From Imbricaverruca yamaguchii (Eukaryota; Arthropoda; Thecostraca; Neoverrucidae): DNA of 64,000 nucleotides. The stretch spans positions 3,004,501 to 3,068,500 of the forward strand of contig JAOTOL010001647.1 of assembly GCA_034440575.1 (NCBI GenBank). Reading direction: 5' to 3'. A program made the translations under genes and the position numbers. Under the pieces are notes generated by a model, which was given only the letters and a program-made list of their open reading frames with translations, was not told where the DNA came from and made no database searches. Below are positions 39,330 to 64,000 of the stretch, piece after piece (the stretch's first letter is position 1; every line of letters begins with the position of its first letter).

Positions 39330-39906
39330 GGCCGGCCGCCGGCGGCAGGTGCGGTGACCGGCAGCACACCGTCCACTCACCTGACGGCGCGTCTCCGGAC
39401 GCCGCCGGCGGCAGGTGCGGTAACCGGCAGCACACCGTCCACTCACCTGACGGCGCGTCTCCGGGCGCCAGCGGCAGGTGCGGTAACCGGCAGCACACCG
39501 TCCACTCACCTGACGGCGCGTCTCCGGGCGCCGCCGGCGGCAGGTGCGGTGACCGGCAGCACACCGTCCACTCACCTGACGGCGCGTCTCCGGGCGCAGG
39601 TGCGGTGACCGGCAGCACACCGTCCACTCACCTGACGGCGCGTCTCCGGGCGCCGGCGGCAGGTGCGGTGACCGGCGGCACAGCGTCCACTCACCTGACG
39701 GCGCGTCTCCGGACGCCGCCGGCGGCAGGTGCGGTGACCGGCAGCACACCGTCCACTCACCTGACGGCGCGTCTCCGGGGTGCGGACCGGCAGCACACCG
39801 TCCACTCACCTGACGGCGCGTCTCCGGACGCCGGCGGCAGGTGCGGTGACCGGCAGCACACCGTCCACTCACCTGACGGCGCGTCTCCGGACGCCGGCGG
39901 CAGCAG
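39330..39906 (-). repeat. Minisatellite, ~66-bp unit carrying exon end and 5' splice site
   Basis: About nine units. On the minus strand each holds GGAGACGCGCCGTCAG/gtga, that is, the last bases of the adjoining leucine-zipper exon and its donor CAG/gtgagt, followed by ggacggtgtgctgccggtca. The array starts at the exon's own donor (39873/39872). Nine consensus donors thus stand in a row. Confidence 0.95.
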
Positions 39907-40022
39907 TCGGCGGCGCGCGCGCGGCCGGCCGCCGCTGCGCGCTCGCAGCACGTGGAAGCTGAGCTCGCTGTTGCGCCGCTGCAGTGCTGCCACCTGGCGC
40001 TCCAGGTCGGCCAGGCGTCGAG
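39873..40022 (-). CDS. Leucine-zipper exon of a bHLH-Zip factor
   Basis: The minus-strand exon starts after ccgccgacag and ends at the consensus donor CCGTCAG/gtgagt. It encodes ARRLADLERQVAALQRRNSE followed by LSFHVLRA, with leucine, valine and leucine on heptad positions, then an Arg/Pro-rich tail. Its entry phase (one base carried over) equals the exit phase of the bHLH exon at 42126-42322, and joining them puts a zipper soon after helix 2 as in bHLH-Zip proteins. That pairing is inferred. The acceptor is weak in pyrimidines; gtactgtgccag 20 bases upstream would enter a frame with TGA at once. Confidence 0.6.
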
Positions 40023-40090
40023 CTGTCGGCGGCACCACCGGGCCCGGTCACTGGCACAGTACAGACACATGATGTTCTCTGACGATGATG

Positions 40091-40146
40091 ATTGTTATTG
40101 TTCGGTTTTTGGGCGCATCGACCAGTGTAGGTCATTTAGCGCCCAT
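40091..40146 (-). mobile_element. Ultra-short hairpin retroposon
   Basis: Minus strand: GGGCGCTAAATGACCTACAC, TGGTCGATGCGCCC and tail AAAAACCGAACAATAACAAT. Both stems intact; no clear duplication. It lies just upstream of the zipper exon, in the putative intron. Confidence 0.75.
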
Positions 40147-40441
40147 AACGTTATGCACTACCTTCTGAGCATTTGTGGTGCAGCTTAACACGGCATCTTC
40201 ACTGTCCCGGATATATTATTGGAAAACCTGATTTTATAACGAAGCGGCACACGCTCCCCAGGCATTCAGAGTCATCGCTAAGAAGGCTGGAGAGCGTCCT
40301 GTTAGTCCCACCCACACGACTGTTCTCGGCTCAGCTCTTGTCGCTGTGTGTCGGCGGGCCCGAAGGAAATCGGCTCCGTCACCGGCAGAGATCGGCCCCT
40401 CCCTTAATTGATGCAGGGGCTGTGGTTGGACAGGATGGTCA

Positions 40442-40620
40442 CCGTCTTCTCCGGTTATTAGTTTTACGGCACGTCGACCGTTGAGTCACATAGCGTCGCC
40501 AATCTCTAGCGCCGATTGGTCGCGGGCAAAGAGTAGCGACAAGTGAGACACGAACCCACAATCTTTCGATCGTGAGACGTAACTTACCCTAGACTACTCG
40601 TCCCTCCCGCCGCCTTCTCC
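40442..40620 (-). mobile_element. tRNA-headed SINE with 11-bp target-site duplication
   Basis: ccgtcttctcc (40442-40452) and ccgccttctcc (40610-40620) flank a 157-bp minus-strand SINE: GAGTAGTCTAGGGTAAG (A box), GATTGTGGGTTCGTGTCTCA (B box), TTGCCCGCGACCAATCGGCG, hairpin GCGACGC/GTGCCG and tail TAAAACTAATAACC. The duplication gives the true length of the family. Confidence 0.85.
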
Positions 40621-41127
40621 CGACGAGCGTGCTGCCGGCTGCGTCCGCTTCACAGCAGACGCAGTCGGCCACAGACAGTACGGCGGCGCTCGTGGCACAT
40701 CAGACTGGGCGCGGTGAGAGTGAGAGGCCAACGGAGATGGGGCACACGTCCCCAGAAGTAATGCGAGAGCGCCGTAGTGATGTCGAGGTAATGCAGACCG
40801 GGAGGAGCGGCCGCAGCGAATGTTTGTGCTGGCCTATGGAGACGCAACAATGAACCAGTACTCGGCTTTTACTTCCCATGGTAAGATTATTATTATGAAG
40901 AATTATACTCACCACACATGCTAAAGTAAATATGCCCAACCTCTCTACCTCCTATCTTTCAACCTCTATGCACCCTGCCCTCTTGCACTTTCTACTTCCT
41001 TCCTTCTTGACCTCTCTACTGGCTCCTTCATCAATATCTACATGTTGCCCTCCAACATTGTGTCTTTTCTATCTTCCGCACTTGTACACTGCCATGTCGT
41101 GACCTTCTCCCTTTCTGTCCAGTGAAC

Positions 41128-42121
41128 ACTAGCTCGAGCCCAGCCCGCCACTGTCCAGTGAACACTAGCTCGAGCCCAGCCCGCCACCGTCCAGTGAATA
41201 CTAGCTCCAGCCCAGCCCACCACTGTCCAGTGAACACTAGCTCCAGCCCAGCCCGCCACTGTCCAGTGAACACTAGCTCCAGCCCAGCCCGCCACTGACC
41301 AGTGAACACAAGCTCGAGCCCAGCCCGCCACTGTCCAGTGAACACTAGCTCCAGCCCAGCCCGCCACTGACCAGTGAACACAAGCTCAGCCCAGCCCGCC
41401 ACTGACCAGTGAACACAAGCTCGAGCCCAGCCCGCCACTGTCCAGTGAACACTAGCTCCAGCCCAGCCCGCCACTGACCAGTGAACACAAGCTCGAGCCC
41501 AGCCCGCCACTGTCCAGTGAACACTAGCTCGAGCCCAGCCCGCCACTGTCCAGTGCATACTAGGTCCAGTCCAGCCCGCCACTGTCCAGTGCATACTAGC
41601 TCCAGCCCAGCCCGCCACTGACCAGTGAACACTAGCTCCAGCCCAGCCCGCCACTGACCAGTGAACACAAGCTCGAGCCCAGCCCGCCACTGTCCAGTGA
41701 ACACTAGCTCCAGCCCAGCCCGCCACTGACCAGTGAACACAAGCTCGAGCCCAGCCCGCCACTGACCAGTGAACACAAGCTCGAGCCCAGCCCGCCACTG
41801 TCCAGTGAACACTAGCTCCAGCCCAGCCCGCCACTGTCCAGTGAACACTAGCTCGAGCCCAGCCCGCCACTGTCCAGTGAACACTAGCTCGAGCCCAGCC
41901 CGCCACTGTCCAGTGAACACAAGCTCGAGCCCAGCCCGCCACTGTCCAGTGAACACTAGCTCGAGCCCAGCCCGCCACTGTCCAGTGCATACTAGGTCCA
42001 GTCCAGCCCGCCACTGTCCAGTGCAACTAGCTCCAGCCCAGCCCGCCACTGTCCAGTGAACACTAGCTCCAGCCCAGCCCGCCACTGTCCAGTGAACACT
42101 AGCTCCAGCCCAGCCCGCCAC
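41128..42121 (-). repeat. Minisatellite, 36-bp unit, starting at the bHLH exon's donor
   Basis: About 27 units; minus-strand unit gtcagtggcgggctgggctg plus gagctagtgttcactg, with tggacagtgg and tggtcagtgg variants. The exon ends GAGGCGG/gtcagt and this donor sequence is the first unit of the array. Since 36 is a multiple of three, frames of over 300 codons run through it on both strands; they are artefacts. Confidence 0.95.
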
Positions 42122-42125
42122 TGAC

Positions 42126-42322
42126 CCGCCTCGGCGCCCGGCCTGTCGGCGGCCGCGTCGTCGGTCGCCTCCTGGTCGAGCGTGGCCAGGTACTCGGCGG
42201 CCTGCAGCAGCAGCGCGTGCTTGGACGGCAGAGGAACGCTCGGGTCGTACGACGGCAGCGACCGGTACAGGCGGGCGAAGCCGGCCGAGATCCGCTCGCG
42301 ACGGTGGCGCTCGCATCGGGCA
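42126..42322 (-). CDS. bHLH DNA-binding exon of a transcription factor
   Basis: The minus-strand exon follows the acceptor ccgctgcctgttgcag and ends at CGAGGCGG/gtcagt. It encodes a basic region ARCERHRRERISAGF with the E-box contacts Glu9 and Arg12-Arg13 (bHLH numbering), helix 1 FARLYRSLPSY, a loop, and helix 2 LPSKHALLLQAAEYLATLDQ, then an acidic/alanine linker. bHLH proteins bind CANNTG as dimers in the nucleus. INAGF-like helix 1 and LLQ.AEY helix 2 recall AP-4, but the similarity is too short to name it. Entry is in phase 2, so the DNA-recognition residue at position 5 is coded in an earlier exon that I could not place with certainty. Confidence 0.8.
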
Positions 42323-42427
42323 CTGCAACAGGCAGCGGTCCGGGGCAACTCGCTAGGGTAGAATCAGTCGGGCCCGCCGCAGCGTTAAAATAATAGCCTT
42401 TCGCGAGGTGTGAGATGCCGAAACGGG

Positions 42428-42597
42428 CACAGTAGGATGTTGAAATTAGCCATGGAAACGATGTCTCGTAACATGATGCCTACACGAGTACAGTAGGGTG
42501 CCGAAAGTAGCCATGGAAACGATGTCTCATAACATGATGCCTACACGAGTACAGTAGGATGCCGAAATTAGCCATGGAAACGATGTCGCGTAGCACA
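42428..42597. repeat. 61-bp tandem repeat, under three copies
   Basis: Unit acagtaggatgccgaaatta plus gccatggaaacgatgtctcg plus taacatgatgcctacacgagt, present about 2.7 times. Confidence 0.9.
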
Positions 42598-43589
42598 ACT
42601 TGTTTCTCAAGCATAATTTTGATCCAACAGCGTACTCGTACGCGCATCTTTTTGCGTTGTTTTGAGATACATAATTTAGGAATAACTATCTTATCGATAA
42701 CAATACAAAATAGCAATTCACACCCAGTGATACTGCACAACAGACATCACAAGCAGTCATTCTACGTGGAATTGTGCTAAGAGATGTTCGTGCATCACCA
42801 TTTGCATTGGTGATTCACGAACAATACAATTGAATCAGATATAAATTTGTGTAGACTGAACATGCCAGGATGATGCCTACAAGTAATGCAAGCTGTTGAT
42901 ATGCATTGCTGATCTTAAAATATGACTCATAATAAGCAGGGACTCTGGAAATTCAAAATTGGTACAAAAATAAATACAAGACATACACATTTGACATACT
43001 GACATCTTCTCAACTGTTATATTTACTTTATATTTGAACAACTCAGAAATTTCCAATGAGCTCCTGGCTACTCAGCTTCATTCACAAGTAAACAGCATGA
43101 ACTACACATAAGCAGCAAGAACAAGCTGAACTTACTTTGTCTGGAGAAGCTTCGGCCGCTTTACATGTCTTGGGCGTTCCATGACAGACCTCTATACTTA
43201 TGTCTTCCAATATGGAAGATCAGAGCTCAGCCACACTGGAGACACAAGAGGATCAGATATCAGATATCTTGCAAGCACATGAGGACCAAACTCGGCCTTG
43301 TTACAGCCATAAGGAAATCAGATATCAGCTATTCTGCAGACACAAGATCAGCTGGCTTTGTACATTGCATGTCCTTCAGTAAAAAACAGGCAATGGGGTG
43401 GGGATCAATGAAGTGCCATTGCCATCTCAGGGATATGCCAATACTGACAGCCAAGTCAATAAAACTCCACAGTTGGCAAATATGGATAGCAGTAGTTCAA
43501 GAGGGCACCATGGTACCTCATCCAGTGATGAAAGAGCTACTCAACATGAAATAACCAAAGCTAGTTATGGAACATTTGCTAAGTGTATG

Positions 43590-44110
43590 ATGCTTAATGT
43601 TCAGAGTATTCAATCCAAATTTGATGAGTTCAAGTGTTATGTTGCTGAGGAGGAACCAGATTATGCTTGTACTATTGAGGCATGGGTCAGTGAGGGGTAT
43701 TTTGTGGATAACTTGCAAGACTATGAGATCCAGGGATACAATGTTTTCATGCAATAGGGGTCCAGCAGTGAAAGGGAATGGTGTAATGTTATATGTGAAT
43801 AGCTTATTCCATTTTCAAAAAGAAGCAGATGGAGTTGTAAAAAAATGTGCCTGTGGAGTCCATTTGGCTTCATGTCACTGTGGGAAAAGGCAACAACAAT
43901 ACACTGAGGATAGGAGCTTTGTACTGTACTGATCAGGAACCATGCCACATTCTTATCAATTGAAGCTTGATAAGGTGATTTTCCAGAAAATCAGTAGAAA
44001 CTTTACGAGGAAATGTATTATTCTTGGTGACTTTAATCTAAAAGGATATGAAAGTGTCAGTGTTGGCTCCCATCATGCAAAATGTTTCGGAAATGTCTTG
44101 AAGAACACCT
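43590..44110 (+). mobile_element. LINE endonuclease (EEP) fragment, CpG-depleted
   Basis: Three frames join: CMMLNVQSIQSKFDEFKCYV and DYACTIEAWV (to 43757); VKGNGVMLYVNSLFHF (43770-43820); FTRKCIILGDFNLKG (about 44005-44045). LN.QSI..K.dEl, E.W...., G.G...YV and the catalytic GDFN are landmarks of the apurinic-like endonuclease of Jockey/CR1/L2-type retrotransposons, which nicks target DNA. Frameshifts and the near absence of CpG show an old, inactive copy. Confidence 0.75.
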
Positions 44111-44443
44111 GATCTTACACTAATTTGTAATGGAACCAACTAGGCAGGGCTCATTCTTGCACCTTTTCATGTTGGATTAAGTTTTTTAGTTCATGACTTT
44201 TGATTTAGTTCAAGACTGTTTTGGCATCATGACATTACATGATTCAACATCCCTAGGTCTTTGGAGATCCAACATTGGTAGGCCATATGCAATCCAATGC
44301 TGACATTAGTAGTCAAAAGGTGTCACTTTCCAAAGAAATGAAGGTATAACTGAAGTTTAAAGTAACCATGAAGCAACTTTTACATGCATTTTATAGTATC
44401 TTCATGGAGGTTTAGGGGGTACTGTGAAGAATTTGTTCCAGTG

Positions 44444-44528
44444 TTTGCTTGTGCCCAGTTAGTTGGTTATTGTAGTTTAGGGGTGCATCAACTGCATCAG
44501 TCATGCAGCACCCATTTGCTTGTGCCCA
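44444..44528 (-). mobile_element. Ultra-short retroposon (57 bp), 14-bp duplication, all CpG lost
   Basis: tttgcttgtgccca is at 44444-44457 and 44515-44528. The 57 bases between read on the minus strand TGGGTGCTGCATGACTGATG, CAGTTGATGCACCCCTAAAC and tail TACAATAACCAACTAAC. Compared with the copy at 29071, all four CpG sites are TpG or CpA, which weakens the hairpin. Confidence 0.88.
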
Positions 44529-47500
44529 CTTCCATTCTATAAAATGCTCCCAGTGAAGGACAAAAGCTCCAATTTCTATTCCTATCCCTACCTTCTTTAT
44601 GACCTTGCAATGTATCTGGCAAGTTCAGGCAAAATTTGGCTGTGTTTTGAATGGCAGCTAGCTTCCAGAATGGATATGATTTAAGGTAGAGAAATTCAAA
44701 AATTATCTTGAATGGCAAAGTTACAAAATTATTACAAACTACATGCCAATGCCTTTTTCTGTTCCTTTACCATTGTTTTGGTCAGGACCTACCACATTAT
44801 GAAAATTGCATTATTGCACTTTAAGGTTTTGCACAAGACAAATTTTCACATACATTGGTCTTCATAAAGTGAACAAATTGGTTATATTTGGTTAGGCTAG
44901 GTTACTTTTGTTTAGTTTTTCGGTTGGAAATGTTTTGCAGGGATGTCCCCCCCCTCAAAAAAAAATGTTTTAAGGAAATTGCTTTTTCTTCAAATGCAGC
45001 TGATTTTGCATTGGTTATGTTTGGTAGTATAATTTTAATTTTTTAAAGAAATTGAATTGCTTAAATATCCCTTTTGATTTTTTCTCCAAAGGGAGATTAG
45101 GTTAGGCTATGTTGTCTTTTTATTTCATTATTTAACACTTCTTTTCATGCTGTTACATTACTCAAAGCCCATTTCTGTAATACTTTGCTCACAATCTCAA
45201 AAGCATTTGCACATAAAATGAGTTGGTCCCATCATCTCAGTCACATTCATGAACATTGCATTGGAGAAAAAAAATTACAAGAGTTCATAAAACACCTTAG
45301 AGCATAAGTTTACCAGAAAATCCCTGCTGTGCCACCGACTTCGCTCATTATTATTATTGCAACCCAAGGTCGTGCAACCAGGGGGTGTCATCCAAATAGC
45401 GGCCAGGGAGCAAATTGAGCTTCCATGTTTGATATATGACGTAAGTGGTGCTCAAATTTACTGTTAATATCTGAATGTGATTGCATACAGGTTCCCATTG
45501 GTGCATGTTCTTCGCACCATATCATGAAGAGCACACGCTATTAATATATATTAATATACTGAGCCTAAGTTGCATTAAAATCTCTTGTAGAAAATTGCAG
45601 CGATTTAAGCGGCAAAAACATGCAGCGTTTTAGACAAGGATTCCTGCCATATTTGCAGTTGTACAATTACGGCTTGTGTGTGACACGCATTGCGCACTGC
45701 GTTCTCTTGCATGGTTTTCATGGTTTTCTTGCATCCCACCCCGTTAAATTTTCACACCAGAGGTGCGCTAAATGTGCTTTTGTAGTGGTACCCATCCAAA
45801 AAATGGCCCTCTCCAGACAAATGCCGACAAATCCAGACAAATGAATAGATACGGATGATGAATTTTGGTCCAAGCGCACTACAGCCCAAATAACTAACAC
45901 TCCCCATAGCTTGGCCATATTTAATCTTTGATTGCTTTCGAGGATAAGATGGACATTTATTGCATGACTAGGCTTTAATTGAGTATTTTCCTCACCTGCT
46001 TCCATTGGCAAATATTTGTGCATCAGGTGACTGGCTAATGTAAAAATAAATAAGGTGAGAAGTAAAAATATTAATATGTAATATGTGAAATTATAATATG
46101 TGAAGAAAAATCAGGTGTAAAATAATAATCAAAGGTGCAAAATTGACCAACAGTCCTGACCATCAATAACTGTGTGATCAGATTAAAAAGAAAGACACCA
46201 AGATTTGAACCCACCACCACCTGTACAGAAAGCAAATGCCTTAATCAACCATGCCAATATGCCCATATGGGGTTTCCTGGAATATGCTACATAGAGCATG
46301 TCAACTGGAGAGATATGTTTGTTACACACCACTTATTGTAATATGCATTGATGCAATGTTTGATGTATTATTATTGACATACATTGTTCAATATTATATA
46401 CAGAGAAGTCATGGAAGACTACAACTTCATAGAATGCACCAAAGAGGTAATATTAAGGAAAAAACCTTTGAACTTAAAAATACTAACCAAATCTGACCTA
46501 TTAAACATTTGCTTTATGGAGAAAAATGCCTGTAAAAACTAAAGCATCCAATATTTTAATTGGTTTAAGCTGACCATGTACTGCACTTCCTCAGAGTTTG
46601 GCTTTCAATGAGAAGGTCATATTAAAATGTCACTGTCATGTGTCATCTTGCTCCCTGCAGCTGCACTGAAACACATAGAAATGTAAATTTGGGATTTATA
46701 TATTCTTGGGCATGTACAGCTTTACATGCATGGGATGCAGAATATTTGGTGGCCTTGAGCTGGTTGCTAAGTATGAGCATGTCAAGGGTATCATGCTGTG
46801 AAGAAGCTAATTACTATTGGGTGGCATTCAATCCCAAAAGATCCTTCATAATGCTGAAAACATGACATGAATGTTAATATCTGCATCTATGATTCATGCA
46901 TGGAATGCTATAACACATTTCAGAATCTTGCTGCATAGTGGCCTGACTAGGAAACAGTGTCTTGAATTTGACTTCATGTAGAGTGGAGGTGGAAGGGTGT
47001 AGTGTCAAAAAGTAGAGCTGATGTAAAAGTATGTGCAAATGTATATGGATAATGCCTATTGAATGACTGCATGACCTCTGTTGATGATTATGGTGATGAT
47101 GTCAGAAGTGTACCTACTGCCATTACCAGTCAGCAGTGCTGAGGTGAGAAGCCATACATGCTCTTAATGACCAAAATGTCTTACCCCCAACTGTGGGAGA
47201 ATGGATTTTGTACCTATTTTGCATTGCAAAGGGGTCACTTTGACCCTCACCCCAACTTTTGCTCTAAGCAAGATAGAGTTGCTGTAAACATCATGTCTCT
47301 ACATACATAGCTGTCACACATGTCACAAATCCTGTCAAGATCAAATACCTGGAATTGTGTGATGACCTGTTGAAGACAACAATTTTGACAATACATGATG
47401 CTCAGCAGAAAAAAAACTGAGTGCCACAACAGCGAAGGAATGTGTTTCTCATTCCTTGGAAGTTTTCAAGACAATGGTTAATGAACTTTACAACATTTTA

Positions 47501-48290: not shown

Positions 48291-48391
48291 TTGCATGTGT
48301 TCAACAGTGACCATGGTGTAATTCCACACAAGATCATCTCAATCCATGGACGTGACATACTCCGGCTGGACCTGACCTCCTGTCAACTCAG
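48291..48391 (+). CDS. LRMDA: LRMDA homologue, leucine-rich repeat exon (first found)
   Basis: The acceptor acttttgttttcag and donor CTCAG/gtattg bound a 101-base exon in phase 0, leaving phase 2. It encodes SIHGRDILRLDLTSCQLR, where L.LDLT.C.L is an LRR strand motif. The Arg codon is completed by the next exon. LRMDA (C10orf11) is a small leucine-rich repeat protein linked in vertebrates to melanocyte differentiation and oculocutaneous albinism; its role in invertebrates is not something I can state. Residues before this exon, including the start Met, are missing from my model. Confidence 0.75.
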
Positions 48392-49215: not shown

Positions 49216-49339
49216 AACTTCAAAGGAGTTGAGCCTGTTCACCAATATAGAAGAATTAATCTTGGATAACAATGATCTGAGATCGTTGGAGCTGTCTCAA
49301 ATGCTACACCTTCACACTCTTTCACTTAACAAGAACAAG
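49216..49339 (+). CDS. LRMDA: LRMDA homologue, LRR exon
   Basis: Acceptor atttccatcttgtttcag, donor AACAAG/gtgggt; 124 bases, phase 2 in and phase 0 out. It encodes ELSLFTNIEELILDNNDLRS and LHLHTLSLNKNK. The pairs EELILDNN.L and LHTL.LNKN are hallmark LRRs of vertebrate LRMDA at the same spacing. Confidence 0.9.
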
Positions 49340-49499: not shown

Positions 49500-51140
49500 G
49501 TGTGTCAGTTGGAGACATGGGTGGAACACTGGTGGTGGCAGTTGGCATACCTGCATATCAGTTGAGGTATCTGAGCAGTGGGAACTGGTGTGTGTCAGTT
49601 GAGGTATCTGAACAGTGGGAACTGGTGTGTGTCAGTTGAGGTATCTGAACAGTGTGAGCTGGTGTGTGTCAGTTGAGGTATCTGAACAGTGTGAGCTGGT
49701 GTGTGTCAGTTGAGGTATCTGGACAGTGTGAGCTGGGTGTGTCAGTTGAGGTATATGGAGTGTGAATGGTGTGTGTCAGTTGAGGTATCTGAACAGTGTG
49801 AACTGGTGTGTGTGTTGGTATCTGGTGTGAGCTTGGTGGTTTAGTGTGAATTTTTCTTAGGTATCTGAAGGAGCTGTGTGTGTGTTGAGGTATCTGAGAG
49901 GTGAGCTGGTGTGTGTCAGTTGAGGTATCTGAACAGTGGGAACTGGTGTGTGTCAGTTGAGGTATCTGAACAGTGTGAGCTGGTGTGTGTCAGTTGAGGT
50001 ATCTGAACAGTGTGAGCTGGTGTGTGTCGGTTGAGGTATCTGAACATGTGAGCTGTGTGTGTCGTTGAGGTATCGAACATGTGAGCTGTTGTGTCAGTTA
50101 GGTATTGATGTGTGAATGGTGTGTGTCAGTTGAGGTATCTGAACAGTGTTAACTGGTGTGTGTCAGTTGAGGTATATGGATGGTGTGAATGGTGTGTGTC
50201 AGTTGAGGTATCTGAACAGTGTGAACTGGTGTGTGTCAGTTGAGGTATCTGAACAGTGTGAGCTGGTGTGTGTCAGTTGAGGTATCTGAACAGTGTGAGC
50301 TGGTGTGTGTCAGTTGAGGTATCTGAACAGTGTGAGCTGGTGTGTGTCGGTTGAGGTATATGGATGGTGTGAATGGTGTGTGTCAGTTGAGGTATCTGAG
50401 CAGTGTGAGCTGGTGTGTGTCGGTTGAGGTATCTGAACAGTGTGAGCTGGTGTGTGTCAGTTGAGGTATCTGGATGGTGTGAGCTGGTGTGTGTCAGTTG
50501 AGGTATCTGAACAGTGTGAGCTGGTGTGTCAGTTGAGGTATCTGAACAGTGTGAGCTGGTGTGTGTCAGTTGAGGTATCTGAACAGTGTGAACTGGTGTG
50601 TGTCAGTTGAGGTATCTGAACAGTGTGAGCTGGTGTGTGTCAGTTGAGGTATCTGAACAGTGTGAACTGGTGTGTGTCAGTTGAGGTATCTGAACAGTGT
50701 GAGCTGGTGTGTGTCAGTTGAGGTATCTGAACAGTGTGAGCTGGTGTGTGTCAGTTGAGGTATCTGAACAGTGTGACTTGAGTGTGATGGTGTGTGTCAG
50801 TTGAGGTATCTGAACAGTGTGAACTGGTGTGTGTCAGTTGAGGTATCTGAACAGTGTGAGCTGGTGTGTGTCAGTTGAGGTATCTGAACAGTGTGAACTG
50901 GTGTGTGTCAGTTGAGGTATCTGAACAGTGTGAACTGGTGTGTGTCAGTTGAGGTATCTGAACAGTGTGAACTGGTGTGTGTCAGTTGAGGTATCTGAAC
51001 AGTGTGAGCTGGTGTGTGTCAGTTGAGGTATCTGAACAGTGTGAGCTGGTGTGTGTCGGTTGAGGTATTGGATGGCGTGAATGGTGTGTGTCAGTTGAGG
51101 TATCTGAACAGTGTTAACTGGTGTGTGTCAGTTGGAGAAC
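49500..51140 (+). repeat. Minisatellite, 37-bp unit, carrying a 3' splice site
   Basis: More than 40 units of gtgtgtgtcagttgaggtat plus ctgaacagtgtgagctg in the intron before the exon at 51185. That exon begins gtgtatgtgtcag/TTGGAGGACCTG; the outermost units at 49500 (tgtgtcagttggagacatgg) and 51124 (gtgtcagttggagaacgtg) are closest to it. So the unit appears to derive from the acceptor and first exon bases. The stretches 49800-49900 and 50040-50110 are irregular, which may be real decay or poor assembly. Confidence 0.95.
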
Positions 51141-51184: not shown

Positions 51185-51324
51185 TTGGAGGACCTGGACG
51201 AGGTACTAGCGGCACTGCAGCGGTGTGCCATGGGGCTGCGTCACCTCAGTCTCCTAGGCAACCCGTGCAGTCCAGATCAGCTGAACGGGCAACACTACAC
51301 TGCAGATGACTATGCTAGACACAG
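51185..51324 (+). CDS. LRMDA: LRMDA homologue, LRR exon
   Basis: Acceptor tgtgtatgtgtcag, donor GACACAG/gttggt; 140 bases, phase 0 in and phase 2 out. It encodes LEDLDEVLAALQRCAMGLRH then LSLLGNPCSP and YTADDYARH. The L.YLSLLGN..CP block followed by D...Y..YR is typical of the last LRR and cap of LRMDA. Confidence 0.92.
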
Positions 51325-51835: not shown

Positions 51836-51956
51836 GCTCTATGTGCTCCATATGCTGCCTTGGCTGCAGTTTCTGGACAGCAGTGCTGTGACGCGAAGAG
51901 AGCGGTTTGAGGCGAAGCGGCGGGGCCGGTACTGTCGCACCGTTCGGCTGCTCGAG
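51836..51956 (+). CDS. LRMDA: LRMDA homologue, LRR-cap exon
   Basis: Acceptor catgctgggttttcttcag; donor CTCGAG/gtcggt, which also opens the 48-bp minisatellite. 121 bases, phase 2 in, phase 0 out. It encodes RLYVLHMLPWLQFLDSSAVT and RRERFEAKRRGRYCRTVRLL. The LP.L.FLD...VT..ER motif is the conserved LRR C-terminal cap of the family. Reading on through the donor into the repeats gives long but meaningless frames. Confidence 0.9.
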
Positions 51957-52640
51957 GTCGGTAGGGGTCACAGACCAGGCAGACTCACTTGCCTACTGCT
52001 CGAGGTCGGTAGGGGTCACAGACCAGGCAGACTCACTTGCCTACTGCTCGAGGTCGGTAGGGGTCACAGACCAGGCAGACTCACTTGCCTACTGCTCGAG
52101 GTCGGTAGGGGTCACAGACCAGGCAGACTCACTTGCCTACTGCTCGAGGTCGGTAGAGGTCACAGCCCAGGAAGACGTTGCACCGTTCGACTGCTCGAGG
52201 TCGGTAGGGGTCACAGACCAGGCAGACTCACTTGCCTACTGCTCGAGGTCGGTAGGGGTCACAGCCCAGGCAGACTCACTCGCCTACTGCTCGAGGTCGG
52301 TAGGGGGTCACAGACCAGGCAGACTCACTTCCCTACTGCTCGAGGTCGGTAGGGGTCACAGCCCAGGCAGACTCACTTGCCTACTGCTCGAGGTCGGTAT
52401 GGGTCACAGACCAGGCACTCACTTGTCTACTGCTCGAGGTCGGTAGAGGTCACAGCCCAGACAGACTCACGCGCAGGCTGCTCGAGGTCGGTAGAGGTCA
52501 CAGCACAGGAAGACGTCGCACCGTTCGACTGCTCGAGGTTGGTAGAAGTCACAGCCTAGGCAGACTGTCGCACCACCCTTCTGCTCGAGGTCGGTAGAGG
52601 TCACAGCTCAGACTCACTCACCATCCGGCTGGTCAAAGTG
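51933..52640 (+). repeat. Minisatellite, 48-bp unit, carrying the exon's 5' splice site
   Basis: About 14 units of gctcgaggtcggtaggggtc plus acagaccaggcagactcact plus tgcctact. Every unit repeats the exon-intron junction CTGCTCGAG/gtcggt. Units near 52177, 52517 and 52566 also retain upstream exon bases (gtcgcaccgttcg), so the exon end itself was copied into the intron. Confidence 0.95.
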
Positions 52641-53395
52641 GGCAAAGGTGACAGCCCAGGCAGATGTCGCACTGTTTGTATGGTCATATTGGAGCCCAAT
52701 GGAGCCCAAATTGGTCCATGGCGCCATGACATGCCATATACGCCATGTCATGATCTTATCGATAATATGTATATGGGTTTTTTTCGTAGCATTGGCTTGT
52801 AGCACCTTAGGTCAGGTCGCTGCCATGGCTTCCCCATTATAAGGTTATGGTAAAATATACAAATGTTTCCTAGTTACATATTTGTGCTCGGAATGATCTC
52901 ACAACGGTTGTGGCATGTAGATGGAAGCTATGCTCAATGTTACCGCTGACATTTTTGCTCAGTGACCTCACCAAGGTCTTTGAGGTCACCTGAGATCACT
53001 ACACATTTATGCGCATTACATCACACTGCATTGAGCTGCAAGGCTGAAATTACCGTCATTGTGCTTGCATCGTCAAGACGTGTCGATTGATACCTTACAT
53101 GGCATCCCTAGGCCTTGACGTGAGGTCATGACTTCATGACCTTGGCCTGAGTTTCGGTTGACCTGACCTTAAATTACACCGCCTATTGTCGGTAGCGCAT
53201 TTCAAGGATTGTCGAATAGCGTTCGCCTTTTGTTTCTATCTGTTACAGGTCCTTAGATAGGTGTCAATATCTGAGTCCCACCTGATCTGGTCGAATTTGA
53301 CCTATGATGGCCTAGTGACCTGGATGTTGACCGGAGCGAAAAAAATTACCGAAACACTTTCGATAGAGCCCGTCACCAGCTATTCAACGCCGTTT
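52641..53395. other. No gene; many AGGTCA/TGACCT hexamers
   Basis: Intronic to LRMDA. Between 52960 and 53330 there are numerous aggtca, tgacct and ggtcat words, similar to those in the adjoining TTAA-type transposon, so this may be an unrecognised older part of such an element. Confidence 0.4.
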
Positions 53396-53399
53396 TCCG

Positions 53400-54630: not shown

Positions 54631-54780
54631 GTGAGTAAGCCCCTCCACCGAGAGGCAAGGATGCCGAACACTATACCGCCGACTGCCGTCTGTGGATGTC
54701 CAGTAGACCGGTTCACATTTCAACTTTTTTCGAAGATAGCTTCATCTCGCATATTTTCCCATTGTTTGGTTCATTTTAAG

Positions 54781-55589: not shown

Positions 55590-56690
55590 TGCTACTTCGG
55601 TAATCTCGCTCTGTGGCTCTCAACAGCTTGCAAGAGCCACTGGAACTGGGACTCGTCGCCGACCATTCCAGCGAACTCCTTCAGCATGCTGATCCCCCGC
55701 TCGGCTAGATCATTTGTGACTTTGACCTCACGGACAAAGTTCTAGAATTTCACGTAGTCGTCGTCCTCGCACCACTGCTGTGGCGGCCGCTTCAGCCAGG
55801 CGTGCGTGGACGGACCGATCAACTAAAAAAGGAGCCATGAGGTCTCGTCAACGAGATCCGACAGTCGCGTGCTCGCATCCAGGCATACTACGGGCACGTC
55901 CTCCTCAAGCCGCCGACCACGGAGACGCGGCGTCGCCCGCAGTCTCGTGCACATCTGTAATGAAGTTTTGCTCCCCCAGAGCTTTTTCAGACCTTTCCCA
56001 CTTTGTCTGACGTAAACTATTAGGCATGTGAATAGACTATGGGCCTCGACGTTCGCGATTTTCTGAACCAGGTTATAATTTCAATAACTCTGAGTCCCCA
56101 TCTCAGATCTCTGATTCAAACATGTATGCATCCAAGTCTTCATACAAACCCAGCCTGACACCATCTCAATCTCTTGTTAACGTTCACACACAATCTTCAA
56201 CTTGTACACAGATCGACCTTCAACATACTAACTCCCATCTCACACGATTATATCTCAACAGTTATACAGCGGTTTCAGACAGTCAGTCTCAGACATACCT
56301 TCAATAGTGACCCCGGGCGGCCTCACTGCCTCACTGCCTCTTTCCTCACTGCCCGCAAATGTGCCTTACCAGCATAGATCTTGTCTTGCCCAATCATCCG
56401 AAACTGCCTAGGACCCTTCTGGTCTCCATAGAAGGCTTCATCTTCAGCTCTGGTCTGAGCGGTCAGCACGCGGTTCCTCCTGATATCCTCCAGAGCATCC
56501 AGGAGCTCCAATGTCCCAGAGTTGGTCCAACTTCTCTACAAAAAGCCTTCTCTTGCCCTGTGGGTTTGATCGCCTTGTATTCTTCTCGAGTTTCCGCCAC
56601 TCCGTGAAAAGTAACTCGAGCCTCTGCTGGCAGTTGTATGGCCGCATGGGCCTGATACGGGCCACTTAAAAAAGGGAGCACATTCTCCAC
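55590..56690 (-). pseudogene. Internally deleted second copy of the transposon-type protein
   Basis: Minus strand. 56690-56330 holds the N-terminal blocks across two frames (QLPAEARVTFHGVAETREEY, KLDQLWDIGA, LLDALEDIRRNRVLTAQTR, FRMIGQDKIYAGK). 55760-55590 holds the C-terminal block VTNDLAERGISMLKEFAG and FQWLLQAVESHR, matching VMNDHAERGVALLQEYN of the copy at 11306-13565. The ~570 bases between the blocks are much shorter than the ~1.8 kb of the other copy, so the centre is deleted. Lies in a putative LRMDA intron, antisense to that gene. Confidence 0.7.
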
Positions 56691-57724
56691 TGTGATCCTG
56701 CATGCTTCACTTTTGCCCTCACACCTTCACTCTCTTTCACGTGAAACAAGAACTGTAGCACTTGCCTTACTGTGGGCAACTGAGACCCTGTGATTGATGG
56801 TCTTGGTTGGCCCACCAAGAACTTCTCAGTGCCCTTTCTGAGTCTCTTGGATTTGTCTTTTTCAGCGCCTGGAGGAGGCTCTGCGCTGACCAGTTTCTTC
56901 CCACTTCTTGCGCTGATTGGCTCCATAACAGACAATTCCTTTTGTGTCTCTAACACCAAAGGAATTGTCTGTTAATTACATTATGCTGGGGAGGGGGACC
57001 TGATAATGAACAACGTCACCCATATGATCCAGTGTTAAGAATGCATAGGTAGCATTTGGAAGGTGGGAAGAGAAGGGGAGCGGTGAAAGCCAATGCGGTG
57101 TAAGGTAATTTTATGGACATACCAAAATGTTATAAACAAATCTTTCAAGCTCATGAGTGGCTAGAAATTCACCTGTCAAAAATCGAGTAGGTTAGTTATT
57201 AATGGAAAACGAGCATCAGTCCCTGTTGTGTGAAGTTCCATCCAGCAACAGCCGTTCCTTTGGCTTGGCATTGACAGAGCACTTTTGAGGCTTTTATGTT
57301 TCAAGTGTTTCATAACTGGATTTTCAGTGAGCGTCCATCACCATAAAAACGTAGCAGGTTGACAAAAGCAGGGTAGGAAAGAGTTGACGAACCTGGGATG
57401 GTATTTTGAAATACTGGCCCAGGTTCTCCAACATATGGCATATTTTGCAAAGCATCTTGTGATAATTTCCTTCGTGGGTCAGGAAAATCTTTTTGAGGGA
57501 TGATTTTTTAGCTAATTTTGGAGTCATCATTTTCAGGATGATGTGGCATCATGGCGATCTCATCTGTCCATTCCCACCCATTCAGCACTCTCCATCACCT
57601 CAAGCCTTACAAAAATGGTCAAAAGTATCTAAGTACGGCCAACTCTGAAGACTTCTTTGGCCATACTAAGGACGGACTTCTTCATACCTCATAATTTGCA
57701 CCACATGGTGACAGTGACGTCGCA

Positions 57725-57890
57725 AGTTGGTAAGTCTGCAGAATGTTGCCGTGATGAGATACCAAAGTGGAAAACCGCTGGATTTGCGACCAAAAGAAAG
57801 ATGGATTTGGAAGTCCGAACATGCAAACTTTAGGGTCGACGCGGCACCCCAAGATATTGATCGATCCTGCTAAAACCAACACCAATGGAA
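57725..57890 (-). repeat. Dispersed repeat, inverted partner of 54781-54945
   Basis: Reverse complement of the 54.8-kb block, ending next to a run of A/T bases at 57895-57917. Confidence 0.8.
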
Positions 57891-58286
57891 TAAAAAATGG
57901 AATTAAAAAAAAAAAAAGATGTCCAGTCTTGTGAAGTGCCTGTCGCGGAGCAGTGGATAGTCGTTCTGGCGTGCGCGATCAGACATGGCGCTTCGAATTC
58001 GAAGTTACTCACTAAAGGTCGCCGGAGACACCGACCTTATGCTTCATGTACCAGCTTATTCATGCAATTCTGTGCATATTAATCGATTTACGATATACAA
58101 CAATGAAAGCGTAATTGTCTGAGGATGTTTTGGGCGAGTAAAGCCGATCCATTCGGAGACACTTGTGACCCTGGGCGCAGGAACTGGCTGAAACCCAAGC
58201 TACCGGAGTGTGTGTGTGTGTGCTGGAGGTAGACTGATGGTGATTCGAGCTGGAGGTAGACTCACGCAACCCTGGCGCCATTGCAG

Positions 58287-58366
58287 CCGTGTACGGCCAG
58301 CTGTCGTACAACTACTTGGGCCGCCACTCGGAAGGAAACCGCTTCATTCGCAACTGCGACCTCTGA
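58287..58366 (+). CDS. LRMDA: LRMDA homologue, terminal exon
   Basis: The acceptor ccctggcgccattgcag opens an 80-base exon entering in phase 1 and ending at TGA (58364-58366). It encodes VYGQLSYNYLGRHSEGNRFI and RNCDL at the C-terminus. The Y.G+.SEGNRFIRN.. ending is the most conserved tail of LRMDA proteins, which makes the assignment and the + orientation of the whole gene secure. It lies 6.3 kb beyond the previous certain exon. Confidence 0.92.
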
Positions 58367-59466
58367 GGAGGCCGCGACCGAAGGCGGCTCTCGTGCCTGC
58401 CGCCCGACGCGGTGCTAGCTGTGCGACGTCGCATCTGCGGCGAAATGTTGCCGGACTCTGTGCTGCCTCCTTTCGGAGTCGAGAAAGCTGACCATTTCGA
58501 TGACAGTCCAAGGTTCGACTCTTGGCTTGTCCCAACGGTCGTGGGTCGATCCGACGCCGACAGTGACAATACTTTGCATGTGGATGGTGGCGATGTCTCA
58601 GCCATGGTCGACTCATTTACACAGTGTGCATGTTTTGCGAACAGTGTGTATGTGCACGTTATTCAGGTAGCAAGCGTCCACTGCTGGCGCGTCCAATAGC
58701 ACGGCGGATGCATGGCTGTTGCAGGCTGTGAACCATATCAGAGAATTGTGATTGTGTACGTTCGTTTCGCAGTGCCGTTACCTGGTTTGAAATTGGTATA
58801 GCTGAGCATCGATCAAACCGATCAAGTTCAGAAATGCTACTAACTAGAAATGCCCTGGCCATAGCTCTGTCGGGGATATTTGTGCAAAATATTATCTAAG
58901 CTTCGTCATCTAAACTGCATGTTGGCACTTGGCAGAGGCGCATACATCAAACAGCATTGCTCCGGCGCCAATATTGCGGGCCAATATACTAAGGGACAGG
59001 CTCCGCCCTGTCGGTGATGGTAAATAACGCAGTGCGTTTATTTGCAATATATGTGTGGCTGTAATTCGGTGGGGAGCCGTCTGGCCTTCAATGGGCATTC
59101 GACGAGATTGACTTGCTTCTGTTCTGCATCCTGTCGACATCTCGCAACCAGAAACATCGTGTCGAATGTACTCGTCCTGTCACAACTATCAGGTGATGCT
59201 TACGACCAGGTCCGAAATATATCTTCATGAAGAGTACCGTATGGCTGGCTGTTTGTTTGTGTTGGGTGGTGGAGACCGCGTGCATACCGATGTTCTACGC
59301 ACGTAACGCGACTGCTCATTCATAAATATATTCATTCAAATGACAGCCGTTGGGGGTCCTCGTTTGCCAGTCACGCTGAGATCTGTACGACACTATACTC
59401 TCGCATTCGCCGGGGCGTATCAAACACAGACACAATCCACCCGCATAAAGACAGCACACACGACGC
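58367..59466. other. No gene recognised downstream of LRMDA
   Basis: 58370-58600 is CpG-rich with open frames on both strands but no domain. No clear polyadenylation signal was seen in the first 500 bases after the LRMDA stop. Confidence 0.4.
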
Positions 59467-59685
59467 GCGACAAGCTCTGAATAATTCGCTGGCACGGGAA
59501 CACCCAGCTCTGAATGTTTGCCGACACGTGACACCGAGCTCTGAACGTTTGCCGACACGTGACACCGAGCTCTGAATGTTTGCCGACACGAGACACATCT
59601 CTGAATAATTCGCTGACACGGGGACACCTAGCCGACATGTGGCACCGAACTTTGAATAACTCAGACATGGTACACTACAGTCTTA
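59467..59685. repeat. Minisatellite, 31-bp unit
   Basis: Imperfect units of gctctgaatgtttgccgaca plus cgtgacaccga, alternating with gctctgaataattcgctggc variants. Confidence 0.85.
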
Positions 59686-59689
59686 ATGA

Positions 59690-60645
59690 TCCGCTGGCAC
59701 GAGACACAGCAATACATTGAGTTCAGCTGGACACTAATGCCTGAGAACTCGCCTCCCTATACCTGCCCTAGTAGGAACGTGACGGTAGGACGCATGCTTC
59801 CACCACTCCGTGGTCTGATCCATTGGCGCTTTGGCGCTGAACTGGCCCCAGTCAATATATCTCTGACCGGTATTCCTTCGTCCTGGCCTTTCGTCAGACG
59901 GTGCCTTCAGCACTCGTCAGACCGCATCCCCCCCAAATGATGCTTTATACATGCATGTACGGATATTTCCTAGCGTATACGCATATATAGATGTATAAAT
60001 AAATAAATATATATCATATATAATATGCATGCGTAGAAGATTCGTGCACAAAGATGCATGCACACGTACATGCATACGCATTGTATGTATAACTTTGCCA
60101 TTTCGCTGATACATACACCGTACATACGATCTGTTGACCGTACACCGTACACATCATCTATTGACACAAATCTTAAGCCACGGCTACCTGCACTTCACGA
60201 TTCATCCATGGATCTCCGTCTATGATTGATGACCTATGTCTGATCTATGGGCAAAGCAGACAAGCGGTGACGGTCCGACGACTGACGTAAATAACCATTA
60301 CACAATTCGAGCAGCTACGGTGCATACGTCAACGACGCAGGGCTGCTTTCTTCAGCCCCTTTGACGATGTGTGTAGCGAGATAAACGCGATGCGTCGCCG
60401 TGACCACCGAACACTTTCTACGATCCCACAACATCAAGTCTGAGCGGCTAACAACAATCACATGACACTACACACATCACAGTTTAATGCATGTCTAAAA
60501 TGGCAGGTATAAGGACGTTGGCTAGTCTAGAAGCGTGATTGGAAGCGTACCGGCCCTTGGTGTCTAGGAAGCGTCACAAGTTAACCATCCAGCCGTGCTT
60601 AAGTACCATGATAGGCTGCGGCCGACACAACAGCTGTCCTGACTC
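59690..60645. other. No gene recognised
   Basis: AT-rich ataaataaatatatatcata tract near 59990-60025; otherwise unassigned. Confidence 0.4.
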
Positions 60646-60649
60646 AGCT

Positions 60650-60835
60650 CGCTGGGTGGTCGGCATGGGGACCGCGATAACTCAGCCGGTGTTGTGGATC
60701 GCAAGATTGTCGAGTCAAATCTCGCAACCGGTGGCATTACCGAGTCCACCCGCGACCAATCGGCCTCAGAGGTTGGGACGCTCTATGACTTAGCAGTTGA
60801 ATGCGTCATAAAAGAATCCAGAAAGGTAAATGGTT
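60650..60835 (+). mobile_element. tRNA-headed SINE, diverged family (second copy)
   Basis: gcgataactcagccggtgtt (A-box region), gtcgagtcaaatctcgcaac (B-box region), accgagtccacccgcgacca, and the hairpin GACGCTCTATGACTTAGCAG with GTTGAATGCGTCATAAAAGA. Shares body and tail with the minus-strand copy at 4440-4625. Confidence 0.65.
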
Positions 60836-61498
60836 GGCATGGCAACAACGCCACAACGGTCAGCGACGGCACAACAGTCCGATATTGCACTCTGAATCCT
60901 GCTGACAATCCACCCACTCAGAGGCAGATTTAGCCGTGTCAGCATATACATCTTTAGTCAGTTATTATCACCTGATAATATATCTGTATAAATACGACAC
61001 AGATAATATAAATAAAGAGCATACACTTTCGGAGCGAAAATTTACCACAAATTAAACTCGTCCCATGTACAGTGGTAAAAATACACTGAATTGGACCCGA
61101 TATCAGGTCAGCAATCTTGATTTTATTTATTATTTCTAGATAGAACGTTCTTCTTGATGAAATGTCAGCATAATCTAATTTTGGTACGCATCAGTTACAT
61201 TTACTCCGAATGGCGGCACTGAAGTTCTTGGAACATCACTAGCTCTGACCCGCCTCAGGTCTATGACCTTTGATGATTTGGGCCTGAAATTTGTTACAAA
61301 ATATCCAGAACAGATGCATAAGAAGCTATTGAAAATGTGTCTGTGTTCTATTCTGCCTCTATCACAAAAATAACTGAGGGGAGGGCTCTCTTGAGCCCCA
61401 GCCCACTTTACAAGCGTCTGCAACTATCGCCACGCACTTATATATTGCAACCTGTCCGCCGTACGCACATGCCAGACCTGCCTGTTGAGGCACCACTG

Positions 61499-61558
61499 CC
61501 CAATAGGCTGCCCAATAGGCTGCCCAATAGGCTGTCCAATAGGCTGTCTAATAGGCAG
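61499..61558. repeat. 12-bp tandem repeat, five copies
   Basis: cccaataggctg repeated with slight drift, immediately left of the 21-bp array. Confidence 0.9.
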
Positions 61559-61568
61559 TGAATGGCAG

Positions 61569-62091
61569 GTGCGCAGTCACATCACCGGTCGGCGCCGTCA
61601 CGTCACCGGTCGGTGCCGTCACGTCACCGGTCGGTGCCGTCACGTCACCGGTCGGTGCGCCGTCACGTCACCGGTCGGCGCCGTCACGTCACCGGTCGGC
61701 GCCGTCACGTCACCGGTCGGTGCCGTCACATCACCGGTCGGTGCCGTCACGTCACCGGTCGGCGCCGTCACGTCACCGGTCGGTGCGCCGTCACATACCG
61801 GTCGGCGCCGTACCACCGGTGGCTCGGCCGACCCGTTGCGCGTGTTGCGGGCGCGGTTGGTCCCGGTGGCGCCGCGGTGCGTCACGTCACCGGTCGGTGC
61901 CGTCACCGGTCGGTGCCGTCACGTCACCGGTCGGTGCCGTCACGTCACCGGTCGGTGGCCGTCACGTCACCGGTCGGCGCCGTCACGTGACCGGTCGGCG
62001 CCGTCACTCACCGGTCGGCGCTGTCCTCGGCCAGTACCCTGTTGAGCGCGTTTCGCAGGTCTCACGTCACCGGTCGGCGCCGTCACGTCAC
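61569..62091 (-). repeat. Minisatellite, 21-bp unit, carrying exon end and 5' splice site
   Basis: Minus-strand unit gtgacgtgacggcgccgaccg. The adjoining exon ends GCGCCGACCG/gtgacg, so each unit repeats the junction. At about 62019-62063 the array also contains a 45-base copy of the exon's end (cgctcaacagggtactggcc, gaggacagcgccgaccg). An unrelated GC-rich segment interrupts it at 61800-61880. Confidence 0.93.
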
Positions 62092-62300
62092 CGGTCGGCG
62101 CTGTCCTCGGCCAGTACCCTGTTGAGCGCGTGTCGCAGGTGCGCGGCCGGCTCCAGCCGCGAGCCGCCGGTCGGCGTCGGGTCGGCGCACAGCCGCAGCC
62201 ACTGGTCCAGCTCCGGCTGTGACGACGTGACGGCCGCCGGCGGGTCGTGCAGCAGGCCGCCGCTCATGCCGCGCCCGAACGCGTCCGGCGCCAGCAGGCC
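62092..62300 (-). CDS. Coding exon, unrecognised protein
   Basis: The minus-strand exon follows the acceptor cgtgcggccgctgtcgacag and ends at GACCG/gtgacg; 209 bases, phase 0 in, phase 2 out. It encodes GLLAPDAFGRGMSGGLLHDP, then SSQPELDQWLRLCADPTPTG and HLRHALNRVLAEDSADR. The amphipathic ELDQWLRL and HLRHALNRVL stretches look like real protein. It joins in phase with the exon at 63170-63314. The read-through frame stops right after the donor (TGA), which supports the exon end. Family not recognised. Confidence 0.6.
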
Positions 62301-62365
62301 CTGTCGACAGCGGCCGCACGCCCGTGACCGCCGCAACACGACACACACACACATCCTGCACACAT

Positions 62366-62565
62366 GAGGCAGGGGTGGCCGAGTGGTTATGGTGTTGGGC
62401 TCTGGGTACGAAAGGTTCCGGGTTCGACACTCGCACCGCCCTGGACATTTCCCAATCCCGCGGCCCGCCGGCGAAACAGTGTGGGCAGCGCCATTAGCCG
62501 TGAATGTGCTTGAAGTGCGTCGTAAACCACCCAATAAACAACAAATGCTGAATAAAAAACGCTAT
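62366..62565 (+). mobile_element. tRNA-headed SINE, Ser/Leu-like head
   Basis: ggcaggggtggccgagtggt (A box) and gttccgggttcgacactcgc (B box) followed by ccctggacatttcccaatcc and the tail gtgcgtcgtaaaccacccaa taaacaac. The head resembles a serine or leucine tRNA but no full cloverleaf closes. Confidence 0.65.
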
Positions 62566-62794
62566 TAATACTCTCACCAGGAACGATTCTTTTTCGCATA
62601 GATTCATAGACAGATACCCACATGCTGTACTGTCATGCATGATTAAATTATCTCATGCATCCCTGTCGTAAAAATTGGGAACGCTTTCTTTGTACAGTAC
62701 AGTATGCGTTAAGATGCGGTCACTGTGAATAGTGGATCTGGCGGAATCTGCTAATGAAAACGGAGGAGACATGTACGCATTAGCGTTTAAGATG

Positions 62795-62925
62795 GTAAAA
62801 AAATAAAAATTGGGGGGAGCCAAAAGATTGGGGCCCCCCTTTTTCCCCCTTAATTAAAAAAAAAAAAATAAAAAAAATAAAAAAATTTAAAAAAAAATTT
62901 TTTATTGGGGGGGGCCCGCCCCATC
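62795..62925. repeat. Homopolymer-block sequence, possible assembly artefact
   Basis: Consecutive runs of A, G, C and T (gggggg, cccccc, long A and T runs) without structure. It looks like a poorly resolved homopolymer region. Confidence 0.6.
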
Positions 62926-63169
62926 ACCAGTAATGTTCCGCCGATTAAATACAACCAGGCCTTCTCACGTGCACCGGATGGTTAGCTATATGAGCAGACG
63001 TCACACACTGAAGCATGCACACGAGAAAAACCTATGTCATGACTCAGGCGCAGGTTCATGTAACAGATATCAGAGGGCTTGGAAGGCACCACATTGCCCA
63101 TATAAGTCGAACGTCTTAGGCCCCTTGGTGTACAGACGCCTGGGAAACAACTAAGCTTTGTTCACTTAC

Positions 63170-63314
63170 CTTACAGACGGCGAAGTAGTTGTGATCGGAG
63201 ACGATATGGCTGCAGAGTTGCTCTGGCTCGTACCCCATACAGTCCGCGCACAAGATGGGTGTCACGTGGGTCTTATTCCAGTCAGCAGCCGCATCTGTCG
63301 GCAACAAGCGGTCG
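63170..63314 (-). CDS. Coding exon with cysteine motif, unrecognised protein
   Basis: The minus-strand exon follows acceptor cccagctgacag and ends at the consensus donor GTCTGTAAG/gtaagtg; 145 bases, phase 2 in, phase 0 out. It encodes AADWNKTHVTPILCADCMGY and EPEQLCSHIVSDHNYFAVCK. The CADC pair, a further C..H and a final C could bind a metal or form disulfides; I cannot assign a family. It is the upstream neighbour of the exon at 62092-62300 and phases match. Its acceptor coincides with the edge of the 31-bp minisatellite. Confidence 0.6.
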
Positions 63315-64000
63315 CTGTCAGCTGGGTAAACTGCATAACTGTGTCACCGCCAGCTGGGTACACAGCATAACTGTGTCACCGTCAGCTGGGTACACTGCAC
63401 AACTGTGTCACCGCAGCTGGGTAAACTGCATAAATGTGTCACCGCAGCCGGGTAAACTGCATAACTGTGACACCGTAACTGGGTAAACCGCATAACTGTG
63501 TCACCGCAGCTGGGTAAACTGCATAACTGTGTCACCGCAGCCGGGTAAACTGCACAACGTCTATGTCCGCAGCCGGGTAAACTGCATAACTGTGTCACCG
63601 CAGCTGGGTAACTGCACAACTGTGTCACCGCAGCCGGGTAAACTGCATAACTGTGTCACCGTCAGCTGGGTACACAGCATAACTGTGTCACCGCCAGCTG
63701 GGTACACAGCATAACTGTGTCACCGTCAGCTGGGTACACTGCACAACTGTGTCACCGTCAGCTGGGTACACTGCACAACTGTGTCACCGCAGCTGGGTAA
63801 ACTGCATAACGATGTCACCGCAGCTGGGTAAACTGCAGAACTGTGTCACCGCAGCTGGGTGAACTGCATAACTGTGACACCGCAGCTGGGTAAACTGCAT
63901 AACTGTGTCACCGCAGCTGGGTAAATGCATAAATGTGTCACCGCAGCTGGGTAAACTGCACAACTGTGTCACCGCAGCCGGGTAAACTGCAAAACTGTGT
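63315..64000 (-). repeat. Minisatellite, 31-bp unit, abutting a 3' splice site; runs off the window
   Basis: More than 20 units; plus-strand unit cagctgggtaaactgcataa plus ctgtgtcaccg, with 32-bp gtcagctgggta variants. On the minus strand the adjoining exon begins acccagctgacag/CGACCG, and ttacccagctg-type sequence is the unit itself. The array is open at the right edge. Confidence 0.95.

Follow-up and report, generated by a model that had tools for sequence, protein, structure and literature searches.

In a sample of exons from the genome of the barnacle Imbricaverruca yamaguchii, edges of tandem arrays lie close to splice sites about four times as often as expected from shifted positions. 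These arrays are mirage minisatellites as known from amphioxus, and we give a probability of roughly 0.55 to the reading that they arise by ordinary tandem duplication, their edges drifting to the limits of coding constraint. The starting point was an initial annotation of a single stretch of 64,000 nucleotides (the window; contig JAOTOL010001647.1, positions 3,004,501 to 3,068,500, forward strand), which belongs to an assembly of 767 Mb in 1430 contigs. It had described six arrays, all of them at exon borders, as traces of introns growing by duplication of the exon-intron junction. The observation on the window arrays is partly confirmed and was largely right overall.

Exon borders in the window were established by tblastn of barnacle proteins followed by in-frame joining. 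Homologues from Amphibalanus and Pollicipes delimit the exons of an LRMDA-like gene (six exons), a DIPK2A-like gene (two) and a gene encoding a basic helix-loop-helix (bHLH) protein (two), which provide 11, 3 and 4 of the 18 inferred splice sites, respectively. A slash marks the splice site or exon join throughout.

48291..48391, forward strand: LRMDA-like exon 1 (first found), by homology
49216..49339, forward strand: LRMDA-like exon 2, by homology
51185..51324, forward strand: LRMDA-like exon 3, gapless alignment across both junctions
51836..51956, forward strand: LRMDA-like exon 4, donor GAG/GTCGGT; the LLE/WAAP join is gapless against P0005 and P0003
54528..54630, forward strand: LRMDA-like exon 5, by homology
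58287..58366, forward strand: LRMDA-like exon 6 with the stop codon (58364-58366), by homology
62088..62300, reverse strand: DIPK2A-like last exon, stop codon TGA at 62090-62088, by homology
63170..63314, reverse strand: DIPK2A-like last-but-one exon (5' end at 63314, or 63298), by homology
42126..42322, reverse strand: bHLH gene exon eA (basic helix-loop-helix), Pfam HLH E 3e-5 and homology to P0125
39873..40022, reverse strand: bHLH gene exon eB (leucine zipper), tblastn to P0125, AEA-ARRLADLE join in frame

The window arrays were called with TRF and their borders checked against the barnacle homologues. All six arrays that had been claimed exist:

39332..39906, reverse strand: A1, units of about 63 bp spanning the donor of bHLH exon eB (TRF, exact copies, P0125 homology)
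41115..42123, reverse strand: A2, 36-bp unit, after the donor G/GTCAGT of exon eA (TRF, word counts)
49558..51134, forward strand: A3, 37-bp unit with tgtgtcag/TTG, upstream of the LRMDA-like exon 3 acceptor (TRF, copies)
51931..52672, forward strand: A4, 48-bp unit spanning the LRMDA-like exon 4 donor (TRF, 13 exact copies)
61571..62140, reverse strand: A5, 21-bp units and an 80-bp duplication, spanning the DIPK2A stop codon (TRF, stop codon)
63319..64000, reverse strand: A6, 31-bp unit, to the window end (TRF, copies)

The LRMDA-like protein is 65% identical to proteins of A. amphitrite and Pollicipes pollicipes. Its alignments to P0003 (222 residues) and P0005 (181 residues) are gapless and so establish the positions of the A3 acceptor and the A4 donor, and the gapless joins mean that the A3 and A4 arrays are absent from those two barnacle proteins. 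Likewise, the join AEA-ARRLADLE matches P0125 and thereby fixes the A2 donor. Exon eB matches P0125 up to about residue 131, the alignment being gapped and weak past residue 102, and the next bHLH exon match lies some 74 kb off and begins at residue 136 of P0125. Structure searches with the LRR and bHLH proteins returned weak LRR matches and none for bHLH. The window also holds a single-exon cuticle-like gene with a Chitin_bind_4 domain, in which in-frame coding repeats of 21-bp and 15-bp units occupy 31630-31939; the window cuticle protein is 56% identical to an Amphibalanus amphitrite protein over 27% of the query. At 30311-30518, GGTTA repeats grade into GGTCG repeats, a stretch that we take to resemble an interstitial arthropod telomere repeat, and the frame 16262-16999 matches the DUF4817 helix-turn-helix (E 3.5e-11) and is presumably a mobile-element remnant.

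Units that span the boundary are clear in A1 and A4. In A1, the putative donor CCGTCAG/GTGAGT (last exon base 39873) is one of nine identical candidates, CGTCAGGTGAGTGGAC occurring nine times exactly and each time with CAG/GTGAGT. In A4, CTGCTCGAGGTCGGTA occurs exactly 13 times, at a donor CTCGAG/GTCGGT whose last exon base is 51956. Array A3 spans its boundary by diverged copies: the acceptor is tgtgtcag/TTGGAGG, with the exon starting at 51185, and AG is kept in 36 of 41 loosely matched copies. Arrays A2 and A6 abut their junctions only. The former follows the donor GAGGCGG/GTCAGT (last exon base 42126), begins at intron base 3 and includes almost no exon sequence in its unit; GGACAGTGG is found 18 times in it and GGTCAGTGG 9 times, that is, 18 of 27 counted words without GT, so that GT was lost from most A2 units. 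The latter has its edge about 5 bp upstream of the acceptor ctgacag/CGACCGC (exon from 63314), and AG is kept in none of its four loosely matched copies; A6 units are therefore without the acceptor. The homologues agree equally well with another AG that lies 16 bp further in (exon from 63298), and the placement at 63314 is less certain than the other four array splice sites. A dispersed element with a tRNA-like box (GGTTCGA...), presumably a SINE, occurs four times in the window (18736-18761, forward strand; 33065-33090, 39206-39231 and 40531-40556, reverse strand), one copy being located directly beyond the far end of A1.

Five of the six arrays thus stand at splice sites, as had been claimed for all of them, and A5 is at a stop codon. 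It had been taken to follow a donor CCG/gtgacg; the DIPK2A frame reads LNRVLAEDSADR and then meets TGA at 62090-62088, and since both homologues end there too, the supposed fifth donor is a stop codon. The ratio of six arrays among about nine borders was too high: the window arrays occupy 5 of 18 inferred splice sites (donors 39873, 42126 and 51956; acceptors 51185 and 63314) and one of the two stop codons seen, that of DIPK2A and not that of LRMDA. A further array at 42414-42592 (61-bp unit), which ends 92 bp before the bHLH acceptor, was left out of the 5/18. Nor do the arrays begin exactly at splice sites, a wording that is too strict. The TRF edge of A1, at 39906, is 33 nt within the exon, and the TRF run of A3 ends 51 bp before the exon. 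That the units carry splice sites holds insofar as they often comprise the exon end and the intron start, with the exception of A6 and of most A2 units. Rows of competing splice sites had also been described, and rows of decoy splice motifs are indeed present.

An independent sample was assembled from the rest of the genome and consisted of 90 exon loci with 1.5-kb flanks in coding-strand orientation. These loci are not random but the best-scoring 30 in each of three families, myosin (PF00063), TCP-1 (PF00118) and kinesin (PF00225). The removal of eight near-identical loci and of one intronless locus left 81 loci. Splice sites were assigned by a generic matrix close to the homology end; 76 donors and 68 acceptors were retained, 5 donors and 13 acceptors having been dropped for want of an adequate site. 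The intronless locus, L002 (G000:C1177:278919-280796), is a myosin-head match of 644 positions unlike the other myosin matches; it may be contamination, a retrocopy or an intron-poor gene.

In this sample of exons, array edges occur near splice sites more often than near shifted positions: 16 of the 144 splice sites have an edge within 20 bp vs 3.93 expected, the expected number being slightly lowered by other exons within some background flanks and the p of 0.00025 being the minimum obtainable from 4000 shifts. Both boundary types, 5' and 3', are affected: six of the 76 donors have such an edge, where 1.72 would be expected (p 0.0077), and so do ten of the 68 acceptors, where the expected number is 2.21 (p 0.0002). 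The excess persists for arrays of at least 100 bp (11 edges vs 2.47 expected) and within 10 bp (8 vs 2.07), although for donors alone within 10 bp it is not significant (2 vs 0.90). Eight acceptor edges are located 0-20 bp upstream of the exon. A wider span, reaching 60 bp into the exon and 40 bp beyond it, takes in 26 edges at the 144 sites, 11 at donors and 15 at acceptors.

The claim that introns grow by junction duplication requires a distinction between array edges at junctions and duplication of the junctions themselves. Near-copies of the 24-mer centred on each junction were sought within 700 bp. They exist for 9 of 76 donors, compared with 11.6% of random intron positions in the same loci, and for 2 of 68 acceptors, compared with 17.1%; junction duplication among these sites is thus not commoner than in random intron DNA. 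No mid-exon 24-mer is duplicated at any of the 81 loci, and the near-copy level is about 8-18% in introns but, on entering the exon from either side, reaches 0 within 60 bp. Donor junctions are therefore duplicated about as freely as introns and acceptor junctions less so (donors vs acceptors, Fisher p 0.06), the acceptor count implying that acceptor junction duplications are not neutral. Taken with the edge counts, this means that the excess seen at junctions is one of array edges. Units that do combine exon and intron parts occur in copies of the donor arrays at L003, L027, L054, L065, L066 and L080. In the kinesin locus L066, a 57-bp unit, of which about 52 nt are conserved motor-domain exon and 5 nt intron, is repeated about eight times, and at the same exon a 74-bp unit repeats the acceptor about eleven times.

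Decoy motifs are largely kept. At nine donors (A1, A4, L003, L027, L039, L054, L065, L066 and L080; A2, a counter-example, was left out) 65 of the 72 copies retain GT, and at seven acceptors (A3, A6 with 0/4, L055, L057, L066, L069 and L078) 70 of the 86 retain AG, counts in which some copies may be spurious since the matching was loose, allowing 7 differences in 20. The arrays are also unstable in length, copy number differing between near-identical loci that are alleles or recent duplicates: L055 has 3.0 copies of 76 bp vs a 519-bp array in L056, and L066 and L067 have 10.7 vs 9.7 and 8.3 vs 10.0 copies. L055 and L056, on contigs C89 and C1012, are 95.9% alike over about 3.2 kb, and these contigs are probably two haplotypes left in the assembly.

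The reading we favour is that of mirage-type minisatellites. We infer that ordinary tandem duplication, by replication slippage or unequal exchange, acts in intron and UTR DNA. A unit spanning a junction would duplicate the exon end and intron start, or the intron end and exon start; the outermost copy beside the exon would retain the intact exon and splice site while the other copies would turn intronic. If the exon-proximal copy is picked by splicing, the protein would be unchanged and the duplication nearly neutral, and duplications within exons would be removed. Arrays would gain and lose units, and their edges would drift and halt where coding constraint begins, at splice sites or stop codons; halted edges would then pile up there, with rows of decoy splice motifs. 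The pattern is consistent with duplication in unconstrained DNA that halts at coding constraint, since the exon and one of its junctions survive when a unit spans the junction. Arrays that extend to the limit of coding constraint account for it no worse than junction duplication does, and they also cover A5, which is the same phenomenon at another constraint edge, in a single case. Several points weigh against this explanation: uniform neutral spill-over would not by itself yield a four-fold edge excess, drift being an added assumption; the scarcity of duplicated acceptor junctions is not what neutrality would give; the boundary idea depends on one stop codon, that of LRMDA having no array; and AG is absent from all four A6 copies.

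The edge excess would be explained either by the assumed drift to the constraint boundary or by junctions being hot spots of duplication, such as might result from breaks linked to transcription or from repair that AG/GT microhomology primes, with introns growing by junction duplication. To this second possibility, the less likely one in our judgement, the excess of edges and the mixed exon-intron units of the six donor arrays lend support, as do genome-wide tandem pairs of two splice words, CAGGTRAGT (2240 vs 688 for the reversed word) and AAGGTGAGT (324 vs 34). Other words behave differently, CAGGTAAGT, GAGGTGAGT and TTTGCAGG giving 108 vs 125, 698 vs 537 and 175 vs 283, so that splice words compared genome-wide with their reversed forms are mixed and a general excess was not found. 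Giant arrays moreover distort such counts: among the 100 CAGGTRAGT rows listed, at least 97 come from one array; at G000:C66:21305-25140 a single array with a unit of about 38 bp has at least 97 listed CAGGTGAGT spacings. Because the word pairs are mixed and junction 24-mers are duplicated no more often than random intron DNA, intron growth by a process specific to the junction is not shown, and the position of A5 at a stop codon also speaks against hot spots. In its fuller form, which we hold to be equally doubtful, about a sixth of splice sites would have their own array, intron growth and turnover would be driven outward from junctions, and donors and acceptors would fare differently, decoy donors being tolerated by the spliceosome and decoy acceptors not.

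It is very improbable that the arrays are coding in-frame repeats, the exon continuing through the array to a real donor at its far end. The units of A1, A2 and A4 are multiples of 3 (63, 36 and 48), the exon 4 frame is open through about seven A4 units, and repeats of this kind occur in the cuticle gene; yet the LRMDA-like homologues join exon 4 to exon 5 with no space for repeats, the A1 frame meets stops, the next bHLH exon resumes directly past the aligned end of P0125, and the L066 units would insert 19-residue repeats into the kinesin motor. A selected function, whereby rows of splice sites strengthen exon recognition or yield alternative isoforms, is improbable as well, if slightly less so: the retention of GT in donor copies would suit it but is also explained by unit homogenisation, GT is lost from two thirds of the A2 words, and donor-word spacing has no frame bias. 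A reading-frame filter on donor arrays had been suggested by the window units and was without support. First-copy distances of the nine duplicated donors in the sample (32, 106, 39, 93, 96, 33, 57, 52 and 53) are multiples of 3 in 5 of 9, and the genome-wide spacing of donor-word pairs is a multiple of 3 in 10/33, 7/13 and 7/18 arrays, or 24/64 (binomial p 0.51), by a hand count of three donor words among the first 100 matches listed for each in contig order, CAGGTRAGT being left out as its listed rows fall in three arrays. An assembly artefact, or the chance picking of a rich stretch, is about as remote as coding repeats. The window was chosen by a reader, and its 5/18 sites exceed the 26/144 counted from 60 bp inside to 40 bp outside the exon; however, arrays with diverged units recur across the 81 independent exon loci, and they recur in near-identical locus pairs.

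Mirages were described, in the portions available of PMC3087553, for amphioxus globin and Adh3, at both boundaries, with unstable length and regular splicing by RT-PCR; intron gain from mirages is proposed there, and the general idea is thus already published for amphioxus. The available portions of PMC3902484 add PGBD5 and troponin C as amphioxus mirage genes. As far as these excerpts go, the amphioxus and barnacle arrays are alike in being minisatellite-like tandem duplications that span 5' or 3' boundaries and have AG or GT in their copies, and the amphioxus unit sizes of 10-160 bp and unstable length resemble what is seen in the barnacle. They differ in that shifted positions served as the yardstick for barnacle array edges in the exon sample and that one array spans a stop codon. 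Normal splicing is reported by RT-PCR in those amphioxus excerpts, whereas in the barnacle it is suggested indirectly by LRMDA-like homologues that lack insertions at the joins. The Rogers model of intron gain, as presented in the sections available of PMC4974935 (ATP2A1/ATP2A2, fission yeasts, potato RdRp), likewise involves tandem duplication of a segment with splice signals; according to those sections it creates a new intron from exonic sequence, whereas existing barnacle introns hold copies of their own junctions and no new intron is seen. No mirages outside amphioxus were found in the open-access literature, which omits most subscription papers, and the word "tandem" is absent from the available text of two barnacle genome papers (PMC8270832 and PMC8917513). 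If true genome-wide, the pattern would amount to hundreds of natural experiments on the spliceosome's choice between identical splice sites lying side by side, and would provide material for intron growth and intron gain outside lancelets.
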